A stretch of 64,000 nt of DNA. Source: Polychytrium aggregatum (lineage: Eukaryota; Chytridiomycota; Chytridiomycetes; Polychytriales). This document shows positions 1-45,837 of the stretch, piece by piece. The stretch lies in NCBI RefSeq assembly GCF_025602895.1, contig NW_026516314.1:87543-151542 (forward strand), in the 5' to 3' direction. The stretch's first letter is position 1, and every line of letters starts with the position of its first letter. Made by a program: the position numbers and the translations under genes. The notes beneath the pieces were generated by a model that searched no databases, was not told the origin of the DNA, and saw only the letters and a list, made by a program, of their open reading frames with translations.

Positions 1-2518
1 TGTCCTGGGCAGCCCGATGCGTCCACACTTCTCGCCAGGCCGGACTCTGGGGCCAGCAGCAACAGGACGCCATATCACCTGGCACGGGGCTATCCGAGCT
101 TGGTATGTTGGCGTGACGGTATATCGACGCTGCTTCCCAATAGTCAGAACTGTATGATTTTCAAGGCTGACGTGCCTTTGGTCGTGATCATGATCAGATG
201 CCAATCCGGAGGCCGAGATCCGCTATCGTGTGCTCGATATCTTCCAGGGTAAGCAGATGAATTGAGTGCGCTAGTTAGCATCGATCATAGGCGCTGTGTA
301 ATTCTGTTGGTAGAGTTCCGAATGGAGGCAACTTTGCTCAAAGCGAAACTACTGCGCTCGTGTCTGGTTCGGTATCAAATATGCAGACGGCAAGCTCGAC
401 AAGATCAAATACGAAGAGATGGATGGGCTGCTCTATGTCAGCAGCGGCACGGCATATGCCTTGTTGGATGCGCTGATCTTTCCTCTGTCGCAAGGTACGC
501 CGTGAATCGGTGGACATTTCCCATATCGCGAGCCATCAAACTGTTATGTCGTTGACTCGCTGCCAGTGTTCCGATCGCTGACTCATGGCGCTTTGACGAC
601 TAATCCGTGGCTCACTCGCTGGCCCACTTGTCACTGGTGACGCATTTGTCACGCTTGTTGCATCGCTCCACGCTTGCATCCAGATATGGGATATTCTGAG
701 GTCTTTTTGGCCTCGTATCGCTTCTTCATGTCTCCTCGGACGCTACTCAACTCGCTTGTCGAATGGTACAACGTTGACCTCGACGAGGACGCAAGCTCGT
801 CGCAGCACCAGTTCCTGAAAAAAAATCGCCGTCAAATCCAGGGACGAGTCGCCAAGATCCTGCTTCACTGGATCAAGAAGTTCTGGCACGATTTCACCAC
901 CTCCAAGATCCTTCTGAGGGAGCTGACGATCCTTGTCGACCAGATCTCGCAGACATCCTTTGGAGATGGACAGAAGATCACACAGGCGATTCGCGAGCAG
1001 GTGCGTGCCCATACTGACCGTGACACACACATACTGGTTGGCGCATGCTATGAAGCACATAGCGAGCAGGTTTTATGCAGGCCTGTGTGCGATAGTCGGG
1101 CTCGCTGCGACCGATGAGGCTTCATATTTACTGATTACGTATCGATTACATGCACTGCTGTGCCCGCGGGCGCCGATCTCCACAGAGATTGGCTTGGTTC
1201 ACGGCGCAGTATATCGCCCCCTTTCCGATGAAGCCCAGCGGCCCATCCAGCGGGAACATGCCCCTGATCAGCGATTCCCAGAGCGCGCGGCAGTACATTG
1301 CCAACCTGGAGCCTGAAGACCTGGCCCTGAACCTCACTACCATCGAGCGCTTCTACTTTGGCCAAGTGACGCCGTCAGCCTATCTCCACGTACTTCACCG
1401 ACCTGTTCCGCAAGCTGGCGCGGGATTGGATCCATCGCTCCGGGTCCTGGTGGATTATATCACCTGGTTCAGCTCCGTCTCGACGCTTGTGTCCAACTAT
1501 GTGGGTCTCGAAGATGGGTCCAAGAAACGCGGCAAGGCCATCAAAAAGTTTATCAAAACAGCAAAGGTGTGTTCTGTGATAAGGGCCACTTCCTTGGGCA
1601 ATCGATCTGGTCTGTACTCGTCGCTCACCTAGTAGTCCGAACCGCGTATATAATGTCAGGAATGCAAGAAACTCCAAAACTACAACACGATCTTTGCCAT
1701 CATCCATGGCCTCAAGCGCCCGTGGATCGTAAAGCTCTCGGGTGCATGGGAGTCGCTGTCGACCAAGCATCTGGATACCTTCCGGGACCTGGACTCGCTT
1801 ATGGATCCAACGCGTGGATTCCACAACTACTGGCTGGAGCTTGGAAGCGCCAAGGTCCCTCTTGTGCCGTGCTTTGGTAGGTCTCTGGCGAGTTACACTG
1901 TCCACCAGACTGGCTCATTGGTCAACGGTGTCGTACTGGCTGCTGGCTATGCGCTGGCCTTCGAGCGACCATGCGCAAAAGTCCGCGCGTACGTACACTG
2001 GCAGCAATCATGTGTTGTTCCCAAAATGCCCATTGCCCCCCCCCAATACCAGACCTGCACGAGCTGACAGATACTGCGTTCAATACCTGTTTCAAGCGCT
2101 GCATATGCACGAGCTGATCGATGCGTTCGAGGAGCACTTGACCTACGAAGAACCCCAGTCGCCTGCCGCCCCAGTAACACCGTCATCACTCGGAACCCCG
2201 GCCTCATCGATCGCGCCGGACTCGCTGACGGACGACCGCGATTTGATTCGCATCCTGAACTTTAACAAGTTCTATGTCATGTACGAGATCATCACGGACC
2301 TCGAAATTTATCGCAACACAGCCTATCCGAAATTGACGGACTCGGATGTTGCCGGACTGGTGCTGGCATGTGTGCGCGAGCTGTCTGCGGCGGAGGTGTT
2401 TGGACCGGCTGGAGAAGACCCGACGCTGTCGGCCAGCCACAAATCAGCGCTTAAATCAGGCAGCATCAATCTGAAGGAAAAGAAGCGGGAATCGGCGACT
2501 ACAGCATTTCCAAAATGA
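1..2518 (+). CDS. Ras guanine-nucleotide exchange factor (Cdc25/SOS-type), 3' part
   Basis: This is a multi-exon gene that begins before the window. Exons read in order are: about 207-255 (EIRYRVLDIF), about 342-494 (ending ALLDALIFPLSQ), 684-1000 (RasGEF N-terminal domain, EVFLASYRFFMSP), 1210-1566 (start of the catalytic RasGEF domain, LALNLTTIERFYFGQVTPSAYL, ending KKFIKTAK) and 1660 to about 1876 (ECKKLQNYNTIFAIIHGL). A last exon from about 2053 holds the end of the domain and a charged tail. ECKKLQNYNTIFAI matches the conserved ECRxLxNFNxxxAI motif of the family. The protein would load GTP onto Ras-like GTPases at the membrane. The join near 1877/2053 is unsure because two donors are possible and only one keeps the last frame. 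The reading frame stops at 2516-2518, inside the terminal repeat of mobile element A, so the original C-terminus may have been replaced. Confidence 0.85.
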
Positions 2519-2896
2519 AATGGGACACCCCGTTTTTGACCAGGACAGTGTTTTTTTCTGGAATATGAATACACACCCACTCATCGCATTCATGGCCAAG
2601 CACAGCACCATCTTGATATCGAGAAACCACACTTTGTCCGGAGCTGTGCAAGCTGCCATACGCTGTGGGATCGAGACATTAATGCCTCAAGGAACATGAT
2701 TTCGGTATGTCAGTCGATCATCGCCCATGGAGATCGACCGGGTATATTCAAGACTGTGCTCCCGAAACCAACCAAAACCACTCGATTGCCAACCAAGACG
2801 GGAAACAATCTCACGGCCTGCCCGCTGGGGCCTACAGTCAGTCAGCGGGTTTCAGACATCTGAAGCCAGGAAGTGACTGTCCCGTTTCTTTCTGGA
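2512..2896 (+). mobile_element. Fanzor-derived short element, copy A
   Basis: This is a roughly 385-bp element. The left end contains TGAAATGGGACACC (2515-2528). The right end contains GACTGTCCCGTTTC (2875-2888), which inverted reads GAAACGGGACAGTC. Inside, 2612-2862 is an open frame matching the C-terminus of the Fanzor fragment at 45.6-45.8 kb: LDIEKPHFVRSCASCHTLW, then the RuvC-III-like DRDINASRNM with its acidic residue, then a tail ending SQRVSDI and a stop. The first CxxC half of the zinc finger and everything upstream are missing, so it cannot encode a nuclease. It looks like an internally deleted, non-autonomous derivative. It abuts the RasGEF reading frame. Confidence 0.75.
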
Positions 2897-3560
2897 CCGA
2901 CTGTACCAAGTCATGATGGACAACGCCGACCAGCTCTGCAGCCGGAGTTGGACGTCCTGCCCTCCCCCTGTCGAGCCTGTCTCAATACAAAGAGCACTTT
3001 TAGCACGAGCAAAAAACATCCGCCTGAAGCGTTGCGGCAATGCTGCCATCGCCATTCGGGACAATGCGCCGTGTGGGAACCGCTCGCTTTCGTCTTGAGC
3101 GAGATTGGGCTTTGTTGTGTCTTGGTCACGTGGATGCTCTTCGCAGGAAGCGATTTTCTTGCTGGGCGATGTCCATCCACTGCAATCTGCCCTCTGTCGA
3201 GTGCAACGACGCCATGTCCATCAGGTAGGCTCCGCAAGCTCTTTTGTTCATGCATTGGTGGACAGGAATGCTTCTCCGATAAGGCCACTGGCACTGACGA
3301 TGGCAACGCTGGCGCTGCGGATCACCCAGAGACTTCATCGATCACCGGAAAAAGTCGGGCCTATCATGGTGGGTAGATCCGAGCGGATATGCTCATTTGA
3401 TGCTGCAAGAGGGTGGGGCTGCATCGGTCAACATGAGCTCAGTCTGACCAGGTGCTGCTCATGTCGCCGAGGGATTGTTGGACTTGGAAGGGCGCTCGTA
3501 TCGGCCGGTGCTGACCCGGATCGAGCCCGCTGCGGATTATCGAACTGATTCGATTGGAAA
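2897..3560 (+). other. Unassigned stretch between element A and the basic-protein gene
   Basis: Several short frames are open here on both strands (for example 2913-3098 plus and 2911-3306 minus). None shows a recognisable domain, and their splice context is weak. Parts may be upstream exons or introns of the Lys/Ser-rich gene that follows, for example the frame around 3475-3545 (plus) reading LDLEGRSYRPVLTRIEP. I cannot support a specific gene model. Confidence 0.3.
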
Positions 3561-23999: not shown

Positions 24000-24372
24000 C
24001 AGGGACAATACTCGTTTTCGCTCTGGTTTCAGAGGCCTGAACCCCGTTGAACTTCCGTAGGTTCCAACGATCAAACCGTGCGATTGATTTTGTTGGTTTG
24101 GGAAGCATGGTCTTGAATATGCCTGTGGCGACCATCAATTGACATACTGAGATCATGTTGGTGGTTGCGTTGGTGTGGGAGTGGTGCATACATCGGAACA
24201 TCCGAGCACCTCTGTGGTCTCTCGATATCAATATACTCGGGTGGTTCGAGTCGCTTGGTTTCCAGGCACTGTGAGAATACTGTTTGGGCATGGTTGCGAT
24301 GGGCGGTGGGTATTCACGTTCCAGAACAAAAAATAGTCCTGGCCAAAGTAGAGTGTCCCCGTTCCAAAATGG
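24000..24372 (-). mobile_element. Fanzor-derived short element, copy C
   Basis: On the minus strand it starts CCATTTTGGAACGGGGACAC (about 24371) and ends near 24003 with a degenerate TATTGTCCCTGC. The element carries a damaged zinc finger (FSQCLETKRLEPPEYIDIE) and, after a gap and a frame change, NMISVCQLMVATGIFKTM and LPKPTKSIARFDRWN, aligning with the C-terminus of copies A and F. It is head to head with copy D, about 130 bp apart. Confidence 0.7.
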
Positions 24373-34858: not shown

Positions 34859-35390
34859 GCAGCAATCCCAGTCGCTGTCCTTGTCCTGGTCTGGTCCTGG
34901 TCTGGTCCTGGTCTGGTCCTGGCCATCCGAATTGCGCCGCCGGCATAGTCTCGCCGTGGCAGTAATACGACCTGCCCAAAGCGTTTGCCGGCCCAGGCCA
35001 TCGTCCTCCCCGATGCACTCGGCTCTCAGTGCCACGACCGCGATGGAGCCTGCATACCCGAAACACCCTCCTCTGGCATGTTTGCTCAACTCGAGCCCCT
35101 TGGCTTGACTGAGCGACCGGCTCGACGACAGAGCTTAGCCGCAGAGCTCCAACTTCTATCCAAGTTTTGTTCCTTTCTATGGCACCCTGGCTGACACTTG
35201 GAGGCTCTCTTGCGCTGCTACGGCCGCGCCGGATCCCCGGGCCATCTTGCATTCTATGCCACCCATGTAAACACTGTACTTTTCTACTGGACTCGATAGC
35301 GTCCCATCCCGAATCAAATATAGCTTGTTGGCAAGCAAAATCCGAGTCCTGCATATCAGCGCAGGTGGGGCGAGGGAAGGCTGTAGAGTC
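34859..35390. other. 3' flank of PQ-loop gene 1 with a 12-bp repeat
   Basis: No gene is supported. A TGGTCCTGGTC-type tandem repeat (about four units, 34885-34922) lies just after the stop codon. Confidence 0.6.
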
Positions 35391-35746
35391 AGTCCGGAAA
35401 GAAACGGGACAGTCCTTCTCTGGCATCAGCGATGCAAGTCTGCTGATCTGTAAGCTCCAGTGGGCAAGCCGTGCAATTGTTTCTCGTCCTGGTTGGCAAT
35501 CTCTTTGTGTGGTGCATTCACTCGATGTGGGAGTGTGATGCACTTACTCGACCCTCTGGACAGTTCCATGGTGCATCGATATCAATATACTCGGCCTTCT
35601 CGAGTCGCTTGGCTTCCCGGCACTGTGAGCACACCTGGAGATCGAGTCGCTTGAATCGCCGTGGCTGGCTGGTGCCTTTCGCTTGCGGGGAGCCATCTGG
35701 GCGAGAAAGCGTCCTTGATTCAGATCCAGAAACACATCACTGAATG
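35391..35746 (-). mobile_element. Fanzor-derived element with internal deletions, copy E
   Basis: Minus strand. It starts with a module shared with copy F (GTTTCTGGATCTGAATCAAG), followed by ATGGCTCCCCGCAAG encoding MAPRKRKAP, a probable nuclear-localisation start. It then jumps directly to GGCGATTCAAGCGACTCGAT (found at 45346 in F) and again to AGGTGTGCTCAC plus AAGCCAAGCGACTCGAGAAG (45614 in F). Two internal deletions relative to F are therefore visible at the base level. The right end is GGACTGTCCCGTTTCTTTCC (read on minus, about 35416-35397), the same terminus as copies A and B. No functional protein is possible. Confidence 0.75.
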
Positions 35747-37310
35747 GTCATAGCCAGCGCGCGATGCGTTGGGTGACAGCATTCAACAACGACCAAAATC
35801 CGGAGTCTCCCATTTGTATTGGACATACATATGTATGTGTCCACTGCCAACACCGAGACCAGACCAGGCACGCGAGATGCAACTGATGGGACGCGTCGCA
35901 CAAGATGATCAGTTGCGATGCCCGCGTCCAGGGCAGATATATTTCAAGACCACGGCCCAAGACTCCAGGCGGATGCGAACGCAACATCTGCTCGCGGTGC
36001 GCTGGCATCTCAATACGCCTGTCCTGTCGGTGGCATCTGACACTCGCCCTCCCCTGATGCCAATCGATACCAAGCCCGACATGCTCACCACAAGCCGCTG
36101 AACGCTGTATGCGTCAAGTCCGCTCTCTGGTCGAGTTGCGACCTGGCCGGCAACACCAACAAGAGCAGCTGGATGGACAACATATCGTCTCGGTGCTTGT
36201 CGTCGTCGGCAATCAGCACCACGATCGCCGACCAACGGCCGCCCGCCCGATCTCGCAGCAACACATCGATCCCCTATCGATTCCCCATCGATGCCACATC
36301 CATCCGCATCATCGTGCGTGCATCCGCATCCGCATCCGCAGCAGCAACGGAGTCGCCGGCATCGGATCCCGCACGCACGCCGGGACGGCATCGTGCTCGG
36401 CGCACATCATTGGACGGCAGGAGATCGGGCAGCAAGCTTTTCGTTTGGCCGAACGGGATTGCGATGCGGGAAGGGCAGCCTTGCGACATCACACATCTTT
36501 GCTGCCGCTCAACCGTCGTCGCCCAACAATTTTTTTTTCCTCCTCCCGCCGACCAACACCTCCACCCAAGCACCCGACACCATGCGAAATCGTCGTGGTC
36601 TTTTTTTTTCTCAAGCCTTGTCGGATCAGCTGTCCTTGTCCTCAAGCTCCACCCCTCGGCCGCGCTGCCGGCGCCTTTGCTGCATGTATCCCTGCGCAGC
36701 AGCCCATGTCCTCGCCGCTCAGCAGACACCGGTCCTGGCCAGGACAGCAAGGCCCATCTCACCCGGCGGCCTTGCCAGAAAGCGATTGAATCGGGACTCT
36801 ACACCGGACGCAGCACGGAGACGACATCGACTCGGGCGTGGGAATCACATCGTCAGCAGGAACGGTGCGCCCGTCCGCATTGCAGTTGCGACACCAAGTC
36901 GCCAGCCCGACAAGCGATGCGCACACCATGCGCACAACGCAAGCACTTGCACGAGCGAGCTGCTCCAATCGCGGACTGGTCGTTCCTGGCCCTTCCCACC
37001 TTGCCATTTATGGCACATGTTGGGGGCTCAACATCGGCACCTGCGTCCTCCCTGCCAATGCGTCGTGCCGCTGAGGGGGGGGTGGAAGGGTGACAGACAA
37101 ACCTTTGCGCCCTGCCCGGGTGGGTTCCCGCACGCGCCAGCCCAACTTCTCTGGGTATATATCGGCCCAATTCCCTCGTCAGATCGGTGTCTCCAGTGCC
37201 AGCCTTTGCTCTTCCAAGTTTGAGCATCCACTCCTCCAGAGATCTGCTCAGTTTTTGTCACCCGTCTCCCCGACCCGCGCTTGTCATTCCCACCGCACCA
37301 TATCGCCGAC
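35747..37310. promoter_or_regulatory. Intergenic region and promoter of PQ-loop gene 2
   Basis: Long plus frames (36173-37093, 36291-37223) and their minus counterparts have no domains, biased Arg/Ser/His composition and overlap one another in three frames, so I treat them as GC-rich chance frames. A TATA-like GGGTATATATCGG at about 37148-37160 lies some 155 bp upstream of the ATG at 37311, matching the position in copy 1. Confidence 0.5.
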
Positions 37311-44232: not shown

Positions 44233-45003
44233 GGCTGCGTGTGTCTGCAGCTGCAGACAGGAAAGGAGTGTGGTGCGATGTGGTGTGGTGTGTCTGTGGC
44301 TAGCTGGCGAGCTGGCTGGCTGGCAGGTTGGGTTGGGTAGGGTCGTTGAGTTGGCTGGGTTGGATCGCTGGGTTGGCTGGGTTGGGTCGTTGGATGCTGC
44401 TGGCCCCACCAAAAAAAATTCGCAGCCGGGTGCGCAGACCTGGCCAGCAACAACAAAAAAACAAAATGAAATCACTCAATGAGGCCAGCGGCTGCCGACA
44501 AGGGGGCAGCGCGATCAAGCACGGGACTCGTGTGGCTTGCGTGGCTTGGCGCGGCGAATCCGGGAGCGCTGGTCATGTGATGAATCACGTGTAAACCGTG
44601 TGCCACAGAAGCCGGCCCGTGCCACACAGCCGTTGCGCACTGCCACCAACAACCCTGGGTCAACTCCCACGATCAATTGTTTCCTGCCCCTCGAGGTTGC
44701 TCATCTCGAATATGAAGACACGCTGTAGACCAAGATGCAGCAAAAGTTGGAATCCGGCCATGGTCGGTTGACGGCATTTGGTATCACCTTGAGCCGATTG
44801 ACGGTGGTGGTGGGCGATTGGTGTGGAGGAATGACCAATTGTATCATTGTTGGAAGCTCCACTCCGATTGCGGACAAGAACCACCACCATCTGAATCTCT
44901 CTGGTTGGAAACCTAGTCAAGCGTGGCTGTGTGTCAGTGAGATGACATGATCGTTTGGCTATCAGGCAAGACTCACCTTGACAAGATGTCTTCCCACGAC
45001 TGA
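44233..45003. other. BMS1 promoter side and left flank of the Fanzor fragment
   Basis: 44290-44400 is GTTGG/GCTGG-rich (GGTTGGCTGGGTTGG units). The plus frame 44735-44950 and the minus frame 44660-45106 have no recognisable domain. I looked for a RuvC-I motif of the Fanzor gene here and did not find one. Confidence 0.5.
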
Positions 45004-45837
45004 TTGAGCGAGCGATGCGTTTCTGGATCTGAATCAAGGACGCCACTGTGCAGTATCTCTGCCAGCCCAAAATGCGCTGGTTTTGAGGAGATTCTTTCTT
45101 CCCCAAGGGCAGGACCAGCCATCGTCGCTATTTTCTCGCCAGATGGCTCCCCGCAAGAGAAAGACACCACCCAGGCGACCAAGTGGATCCAGAGCACCCA
45201 CAAGATCCTTGGTCTGCAGCAATGGATGAGCACCACACCAAGTCCCAAGATCCCTGGGTTGGATCCCTTCCTGCGATATATTCGCCATGTGTTCACTGGA
45301 GACATGCTGGACAAACAGCTGTACTTCAGCCTGACCCGGCAACGGCGATTCAAGCGACTCGATCTCCACAGCAAACGACAGCGCACCGTCCACGAGATGT
45401 GCAAGCAAGTCATCGACCAGGCACCGAAGGAGACCGAAGTGGTGATTGCCTTTGGGAATGCATCCTGGAAACAGGGGAAGGGATATGCTTCCAGTCCCAG
45501 GAGACTCAGGTTTGCCAAGTACTTTGAGCAGTTCCACCACCACCAGAGACGCCCACCAGACCGATCCGTCTCCAAGATCCGTGTGTGCTCGGTGAACGAG
45601 TTCAACACGTCCCAGGTGTGCTCACATTGTCGGGAAGCCAAGCGACTCGAGAAGGTCGAGTATCTTGATATCGAGAAACCACATTTTGTCCGGAGCTGTG
45701 CAAGCTGCCATACGCTGTGGGATCGAGACATCAATGCAGCCAGGAACATGATCTCGGTATGCCAGTCGATCATCGCCACAGGAGATCGACCGGGTGTATT
45801 CAAGAAATTTTTTCATAGTGTCATGGTCTGTTTTTGA
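45004..45837 (+). pseudogene. Fanzor (eukaryotic TnpB-like RNA-guided nuclease) fragment, copy F: RuvC-II/III and zinc finger
   Basis: The frame is open for 277 codons but lacks an ATG at its start; the first in-frame ATG is at 45226. From about codon 60 the protein follows the Fanzor1 layout: KWIQSTHKILGLQQWMS, FLRYIRHVF, YFSLTRQRRFKRLDLHSKRQ, then a strand EVVIAFGNASW. It continues with VCSVNEFNTSQVCSHC, where the Glu sits in the DEFxTSxxC position, and ends with a CxxC...CxxC zinc finger and LWDRDINAARNM, which carries the RuvC-III Asp. The N-terminal half and RuvC-I Asp are missing. An ATG at about 45141 starts MAPRKRKTPPRR in another frame, as in copy E, suggesting that an internal deletion joined the true N-terminus out of frame. 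Fanzors act with an omega RNA encoded beside the gene; none was identifiable here. Confidence 0.8.

Follow-up and report, generated by a model that had tools for sequence, protein, structure and literature searches.

A Fanzor fragment in Polychytrium aggregatum and its likely passage from a mariner-type into a CACTA-like transposon

A truncated Fanzor-type reading frame in the chytrid Polychytrium aggregatum is, we consider it likely, carried as cargo by a non-autonomous CACTA-like transposon with two internal deletions; in an ancestor of this transposon, a mariner-borne Fanzor would have become nested in a CACTA-like element and been amplified anew with it. The frame lies in a stretch of 64,000 nucleotides, hereafter the window, that forms part of one contig (C16) of a 64.7-Mb genome in 418 contigs. 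We describe below the fragment and the element around it, the relatives of both in the genome, and the sequence that follows the mariner right end, where a guide RNA would take its guide.

The fragment in the window and the element around it

The open reading frame at 45004-45837 (plus strand, 277 amino acids, with TTG as 'start') is present in the window, and comparison with other copies restricts its Fanzor coding part to 45165-45805. Upstream of 45165 the frame consists of leader sequence and of a MAPRKRK start that is read in another frame; its final codons are right terminal repeat and flanking DNA. The coding part corresponds to the C-terminal quarter of a Fanzor-type nuclease, with the alternative Glu (Ealt), a Cys4 zinc finger and the RuvC-III Asp. 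The initial annotation had described a frame that lost RuvC-I and kept the Ealt motif, the zinc finger and DRDINAARNM, and this description holds: NEFNTSQVCSHC, the second CxxC and DRDINAARNM are all found, the RuvC-I Asp is absent, and the fragment does not extend to the position of the DPG motif of RuvC-I. The Glu stands six residues before the first zinc-finger Cys (NEFNTSQVC); DPG in RuvC-I and a Glu six residues before the zinc finger are given as fingerprints of Fanzors in PMC10711439. The Fanzor identity proposed in the same annotation is borne out by Pfam PF07282 (Cas12f1-like TNB; 42 bits, E 1e-10, cut-off 26.3), and the HMM comparison did not place the fragment in an unrelated zinc-finger family. 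The NCBIfam model guided_TnpB scores 28.5 bits, under its cut-off of 100. The TNB/OrfB zinc-ribbon domain is found in the fragment and also in one short copy and three full-length proteins (34-39 bits with PF07282, cut-off 26.3). The predicted fold of the fragment alone has a pLDDT of 37.6, too low for use.

The fragment is carried by a 1,153-bp transposon. Its ends were placed against those of 25 further rows, in 19 of which both were readable. The features of this copy are the following:

44668..45820, plus strand: non-autonomous CACTA-like transposon (1,153 bp) carrying the fragment
44668..44684, plus strand: left terminal repeat CACGATCAATTGTTTCC, with two mismatches to the family's CACTATCAATTTTTTCC
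44984..45036, plus strand: remnant (53 bp) of the 3' end of a mariner transposase gene, 88.7% identical to L029 2772-2824
45143..45229, plus strand: native Fanzor start (MAPRKRK...), which now opens a frame of 28 codons closed by TGA
45163..45172, plus strand: join left by internal deletion 1 (loss of about 1.8 kb, RuvC-I included), with CACC microhomology
45165..45805, plus strand: C-terminal part of the Fanzor coding sequence (RuvC-II, zinc finger, RuvC-III)
45226..45834, plus strand: longest ATG-started frame in the Fanzor register (MSTTPSPK...)
45598..45600, plus strand: Glu codon at the Ealt position, six residues from the first zinc-finger Cys (fingerprint according to PMC10711439)
45619..45708, plus strand: Cys4 zinc finger (two CxxC)
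45727..45729, plus strand: RuvC-III Asp codon (WDRDINAARN)
45799..45806, plus strand: junction of deletion 2, with CAAGA microhomology
45806..45820, plus strand: right terminal repeat AATTTTTTCATAGTG

The match of the transposase remnant, L029 2772-2824, is the end of the 310-aa DDE_3/IS630 ORF of that locus. Deletion 2 eliminated the 3' tail along with the mariner right end and the greater part of the CACTA right arm, and among the copies read it occurs in the window copy and in a near-identical duplicate on contig C212 only, where 7,000 bases of the window locus recur at 99.8%. The window copy begins CACGA, not CACTA, and has no target duplication. Because of its two internal deletions it has neither the nuclease core nor the guide-RNA region; we expect it to lack catalytic activity and to provide no guide RNA.

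Relatives across the genome and their carriers

A search of the genome with the window fragment gave at least 150 scored matches (1395 first-look candidates) and one with the PF07282 profile at least 150 scored places (663 candidates), so that the heavy amplification surmised in the initial annotation is real, with at least 150 relatives; the near-duplicate on C212 and the common flanks found at other locus pairs indicate that some copies are probably alleles, which inflates copy numbers. The fragment is not a chance resemblance, since there are 150 listed matches and the first ten besides the window itself share 94-97% protein identity across nearly the whole query. A full-length relative had been predicted to exist elsewhere in the genome: among the 150 listed matches, 37 carry an open frame no shorter than 750 aa, and in 108 the frame falls below 500 aa. 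DPG (WIGIDPGVGS) is present in RuvC-I of all nine full-length relatives aligned, as is the Ealt Glu; the first zinc-finger Cys is kept in eight, with Ser in L036. Compared with solved structures, a profile of the nine full-length proteins matched SpuFz1 best of three, weakly (E 0.034), followed by LaTranC (E 0.085); one full-length relative alone gave no match in the PDB at E 0.01. Relatives were also sought in viral contigs, where 45 stretches fit one of two peptide patterns and none was confirmed.

The window element belongs to a family (A) that comprises L026-L028, L030-L032 and L034-L036 together with the short copies. Its termini, CACTATCAATTTTTT...AATTTTTTCATAGTG, are terminal CACTA repeats; the family's 21-base version of the left end occurs at 126 places in the genome at up to two mismatches, and the right arm at 150 places at up to three (control 0 in both cases). 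We examined 26 rows including the window copy, of which 20, from 16 distinct loci, have both ends readable; L013, L015, L019, L023, L031 and L035 were set aside with an end degraded, cut or misplaced. Target duplications of 3 bp flank nine of the 16 loci and duplications of 4 bp two; five loci, the window copy among them, have none. By chance, a 3-bp match is expected once in 64.

Copies fall into several size classes. The full form measures 3.35-3.77 kb and contains the Fanzor ORF, the short form measures 1.55-1.63 kb and lacks about 1.8 kb of the ORF, and the join left by deletion 1 is identical, point differences aside, in 13/13 short rows examined. Three further left ends belong to elements of 250-295 bp with the same termini and no Fanzor, and L055 is yet another deletion form. 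In a tree of the C-terminal sequence short and full copies are intermixed, for which exchange between copies or a repeated origin of the short form could account. Two smaller variations were seen: a leader insertion of about 367 bp (L026 about 1966-2333, L028 about 2684-3051) is also in L031, L032, L034 and L035 and is absent from L027, L030, L036 and the short copies compared; and in family A, the hairpin ahead of the mariner right end has a 7-base loop (GATATCT/AACATCT) that is present or absent as a unit, with constant arms.

The CACTA assignment follows from the ends and the 3-bp duplications, which together are the textbook combination for CACTA/EnSpm and are its sole basis. The outer element could instead be some other terminal-repeat transposon with 3-bp duplications, in which case the nesting would stand and the second carrier would be misnamed. 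No full transposase gene occurs in the family A copies read, and no cognate CACTA transposase with family A ends was found: judged by eye, the nearest PF02992 match lies about 12 kb from any of the 100 listed of the 126 left ends. The textbook pairing of terminus and duplication length speaks against such a misnaming, as do PF02992 transposases in the genome (29 profile matches), and we hold it to be unlikely.

Families B (L029, L033) and C (L037-L040) are Tc1/mariner-type elements that carry a DDE transposase and a Fanzor. Their ends are of mariner type, TACAG...CTGTA in B and ...GTGTA in C, with TA at both ends in four of the six copies (L029, L038, L039, L040); L033 is truncated on its left side, and in L037 the right end was not placed. 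A 310-aa transposase frame is found in L029, where it matches DDE_3 (84.9 bits) and IS630 (120 bits), and in L039, the two genes being 96% identical in DNA over 1,013 bp; in L037, L038 and L040 the frame is shortened or broken. Downstream of the transposase lies the Fanzor frame, of 855 aa in L029 and 790 aa in L039, with 85% and 42% protein identity, respectively, to the family A protein of L036. A second, younger nesting is seen at L023 5834-9001, where a short family A copy has a family C mariner-Fanzor element in its right end.

The window itself holds three remains of such elements:

2500..2905, plus strand: mariner-Fanzor ghost with the left end, the last part of the Fanzor ORF and the right end ...GACTGTA
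24084..24275, minus strand: third, decayed piece of a Fanzor 3' region
35384..35823, minus strand: second ghost, with a degenerate left end, a MAPRKR start, ORF scraps and a right end

The initial annotation had noted a MAPRKRK start in another frame. It is present at 45143..45229, and a MAPRKR start also occurs near 35696 on the minus strand, inside the second ghost.

Other sequences were met beside these elements. Next to the family B copies (L029 5836-6933, L033 5764-9264) are open frames that resemble giant-virus genes, with matches to DUF5901 (40 bits), which we take to be a viral family, and to a primase-helicase like C962R (AEP_C962R, 47 bits; C962R in the PDB, E 1.7e-12); outside the element L029 and L033 have 2.8 kb in common at 98.6%. 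Viruses have been proposed to carry Fanzors, and these frames fit that idea. IS607-type elements seem to be present as well, with an apparent fusion at L002 1483-2913 (minus strand), where a 476-aa frame joins an IS607 transposase start to a TnpB/Fanzor2-like nuclease (46 bits with NF033518, which has a cut-off of 110; guided_TnpB, 109.8 bits); a frame of about the same length (477) is found at three more PF07282 places.

Family A retains a mariner right end, CCCGTTTCTTTCTGGATAGACTGTA, inside it, downstream of the Fanzor ORF. This fossil end and the transposase scrap lie within family A, from which we conclude that the mariner entered the CACTA-like element, not the reverse, and was then copied along. 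Of the right arms and the left ends, three each were read; all six were composites or deletion derivatives, none an empty CACTA-like element, and the pre-insertion state is for this reason one that we infer. The history that we propose would run in four steps. Fanzor genes would have resided in Tc1/mariner-type elements of this genome, adjoining a DDE transposase. One mariner-Fanzor would then have inserted into a CACTA-like element, the left half of the mariner being lost and the Fanzor and right end kept. The composite would have been re-amplified via its outer ends, presumably by a CACTA transposase acting in trans, to yield the 3.35-3.77-kb form with the Fanzor ORF, the 1.55-1.63-kb form with its one common join and the forms of 250-295 bp. 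The window copy, finally, would be a short form that further lost the region of the mariner right end.

The guide position and the C-terminal frame

In Spizellomyces, the guide RNA was shown to consist of a 75-nt right-end scaffold and 14-15 nt of flanking sequence, and working scaffolds are supplied by ghost loci that have no ORF (PMC10432273). By analogy, we expect the full-length relatives to act as RNA-guided nucleases whose guide RNA derives from the mariner right end, and the scaffold would comprise roughly the 75 nt that precede CTGTA. Individual folding of six right ends yielded z-scores of -5.2, -3.0, -1.8, -0.8, -0.6 and -2.5, and that of a family C right end one of 0.16; the right end of the ghost at 2500-2905 has a better fold than 197 of 200 shuffled versions. 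Consensus folding of 27 right ends with RNAalifold gave a weak result, with double changes in 2/17 pairs. For a three-way structure named by the analyst, 95.9% of cells in the 27 right ends are paired vs 95.6% in shuffles (20/500 as high), double-change cells number 4 vs 0.5 (1/500 shuffles), the covariation score is reached in 5/500 and the number of further pair types in 202/500. Versions of the structure slid along the alignment pair at most 51.7%, one of them also with two double-change pairs, and part of the outer stem is missing in B copies. This modelling is no more than suggestive of the three-way structure. Rfam has no match to the right end of L036, and a scan for bacterial-type promoters and terminators returned nothing of use. 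The structural evidence being mixed, the guide RNA is still a proposal.

What follows the right end differs between families. After CTGTA (CTCTA in one ghost) the five non-A rows, L004, L029, L033 and the two window ghosts, each have unrelated flank, whereas 26/26 family A rows, a few of which are one locus read twice, continue with AG[T/C]AT.... The pattern AGTATMTYGCACTGTTCCTTG occurs at 85 places in the genome at up to one mismatch (control 0), and all 85 follow a mariner right end, with GACTGTA exact in 83 and one base off in two. With GACTGTA placed before it the pattern finds 90 places at up to three mismatches, a count that contains all 85 and covers patches without a deletion; the mariner right end followed by AAG occurs at 304 places at up to three mismatches, among which there may be other mariner ends. 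For family A copies, the guide would consist of this near-constant CACTA sequence, not of each copy's own flank. Because the same Fanzor lineage has a per-insertion guide position in family B and the ghosts and a shared one in family A, the genome offers a clean test of the guide's role.

The shared patch is itself variable. Thirteen of the 26 family A rows have it in full, nine lack 5 bases, two lack 4 and two lack 11-12; the 5-base type occurs at 28 places. The deletions cluster about 8-19 nt past the TA, and in seven full copies the patch has 57% gapped columns, the adjoining right arm 3% and the tail 10%. These observations, and the finding that each of the 85 guide-position sequences follows a mariner right end and none is empty, could be explained if the family A Fanzor, guided by the shared CACTA sequence, cut and converted empty CACTA elements until the composite had replaced them. 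SpuFz1 is reported to cut after bases 16-17 and 20-21 and GtFz1 after bases 14-17 (PMC10432273), positions (14-21) with which the patch deletions overlap in part. A single insertion followed by amplification, however, predicts the same lack of empty sites, and patches that bear deletions fall outside the count. Other stretches of the seven full copies are gapped as well (GT repeat 98%, left arm 80% through the 367-bp insertion, right end 17%), short repeats in the patch favour slippage, and 26 rows contain only three deletion types. Homing of this kind is therefore, in our estimate, quite improbable. We see a similarly slim chance that a fixed guide matching the carrier turns a retention nuclease into a homing, or self-scarring, device of that carrier, with nuclease-less copies supplying or losing the guide.

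A second set of observations concerns the short frame. The 633 bp of C-terminal code are free of stops and indels in 24/24 rows (13 short, 9 full A and 2 B, some of them alleles), although the aligned copies were drawn from the best matches, a sampling that favours intact frames. The ratio pN/pS is 0.24 in 11 short loci, 0.25 in seven full-length ones and 1.44 in the two B rows, which have few changes. Taken with the ATG (MSTTPSPK) that starts a 239-aa frame in L022, these figures could suggest that the short form encodes a selected C-terminal Fanzor protein, for example a regulator that binds DNA or RNA and either acts as a competitor of the nuclease or keeps transposition down. Variants found at one locus only (private variants) are much closer to neutral: short copies have 28 non-synonymous to 20 synonymous vs 2.72:1 expected (omega 0.51, p 0.03) and full copies 18 to 12 vs the same expectation (omega 0.55, p 0.15). 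The value of 0.24 is no evidence of function, since full copies match it and the signal fades in private variants. Short and full copies intermix in the tree, so that the signature can be inherited or exchanged, and the window copy has its native start in a different frame. We therefore doubt strongly that such a protein exists, and read the signature in these sequences as the probable trace of past selection on active Fanzors, disseminated as copies multiplied and exchanged sequence.

That a single old Fanzor copy simply rotted in place amid incidental repeats, as the two deletions and missing target duplication of the window copy might suggest, is refuted by the common ends and common deletion join, for the 5' end, the join and the 3' fragment recur at many unlinked places and 12 other short rows are 94.8-97.3% DNA-identical to the window copy over the 633 bp; this reading has next to no chance.

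Comparison with known Fanzor elements

Cargo of a twice-deleted composite of mariner and CACTA-like origin thus remains our reading of the fragment, and several of its ingredients are already known: mariner-borne Fanzor1, chimeric elements, capture by transposons of other superfamilies and amplification to hundreds of copies (PMC3627910, PMC10711439). In Spizellomyces punctatus, SPu-1/SpuFz1 likewise combines a Fanzor-type protein with TA duplications, inverted repeats and many copies (PMC3627910, PMC10432273); 42 Fanzor loci and 134 ghosts are reported there (PMC10432273), the ghosts being short, with both ends kept and the ORF gone, as here. Unlike SPu-1, as far as it is described in these sources, the mariner elements of P. 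aggregatum encode a DDE transposase of their own, and one large family resides in a second, CACTA-like element with a shared guide-position sequence. PGv-1 and PUl-1 resemble families B and C in uniting a mariner-like transposase and Fanzor1 in one element (PMC3627910). Unlike in those two, transposase genes of 96% identity (L029, L039) are paired here with Fanzors 85% and 42% identical to that of L036; such near-identical transposases with very different Fanzors point to the Fanzor as an exchangeable cassette. CMe-1A of Cyanidioschyzon merolae is also present in about 150 copies and shares part of its element with another transposon; unlike the elements described here, it has no terminal repeats and is of unknown class, and a mariner fossil is not reported for it in the accessible text of PMC3627910.

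Further close parallels are the captures of Fanzor1 by Helitron, IS4, Sola and MuDr (PMC3627910) and by hAT and Crypton (PMC10711439), in which, as here, Fanzor1 switches transposon superfamily; chimeric Fanzor elements are on record there as well. CACTA/EnSpm is not among the carriers named in the accessible parts of these two papers, and 'EnSpm' occurs 0 times in that of PMC3627910; a CACTA-like Fanzor carrier with a preserved capture route and a shared guide position was not found in the open-licence literature searched. What is new here is the vehicle, that is, the CACTA-like carrier and the route of its capture. Why Fanzor1 is found in such different transposons, and how it became so widespread, are posed as open questions in PMC10711439. 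Unlike in the captures named above, a fossil mariner end reveals the route, by nesting, and makes one change of Fanzor1 carrier legible in the DNA: a mariner-borne Fanzor would have become nested in a CACTA-like element and then travelled along.
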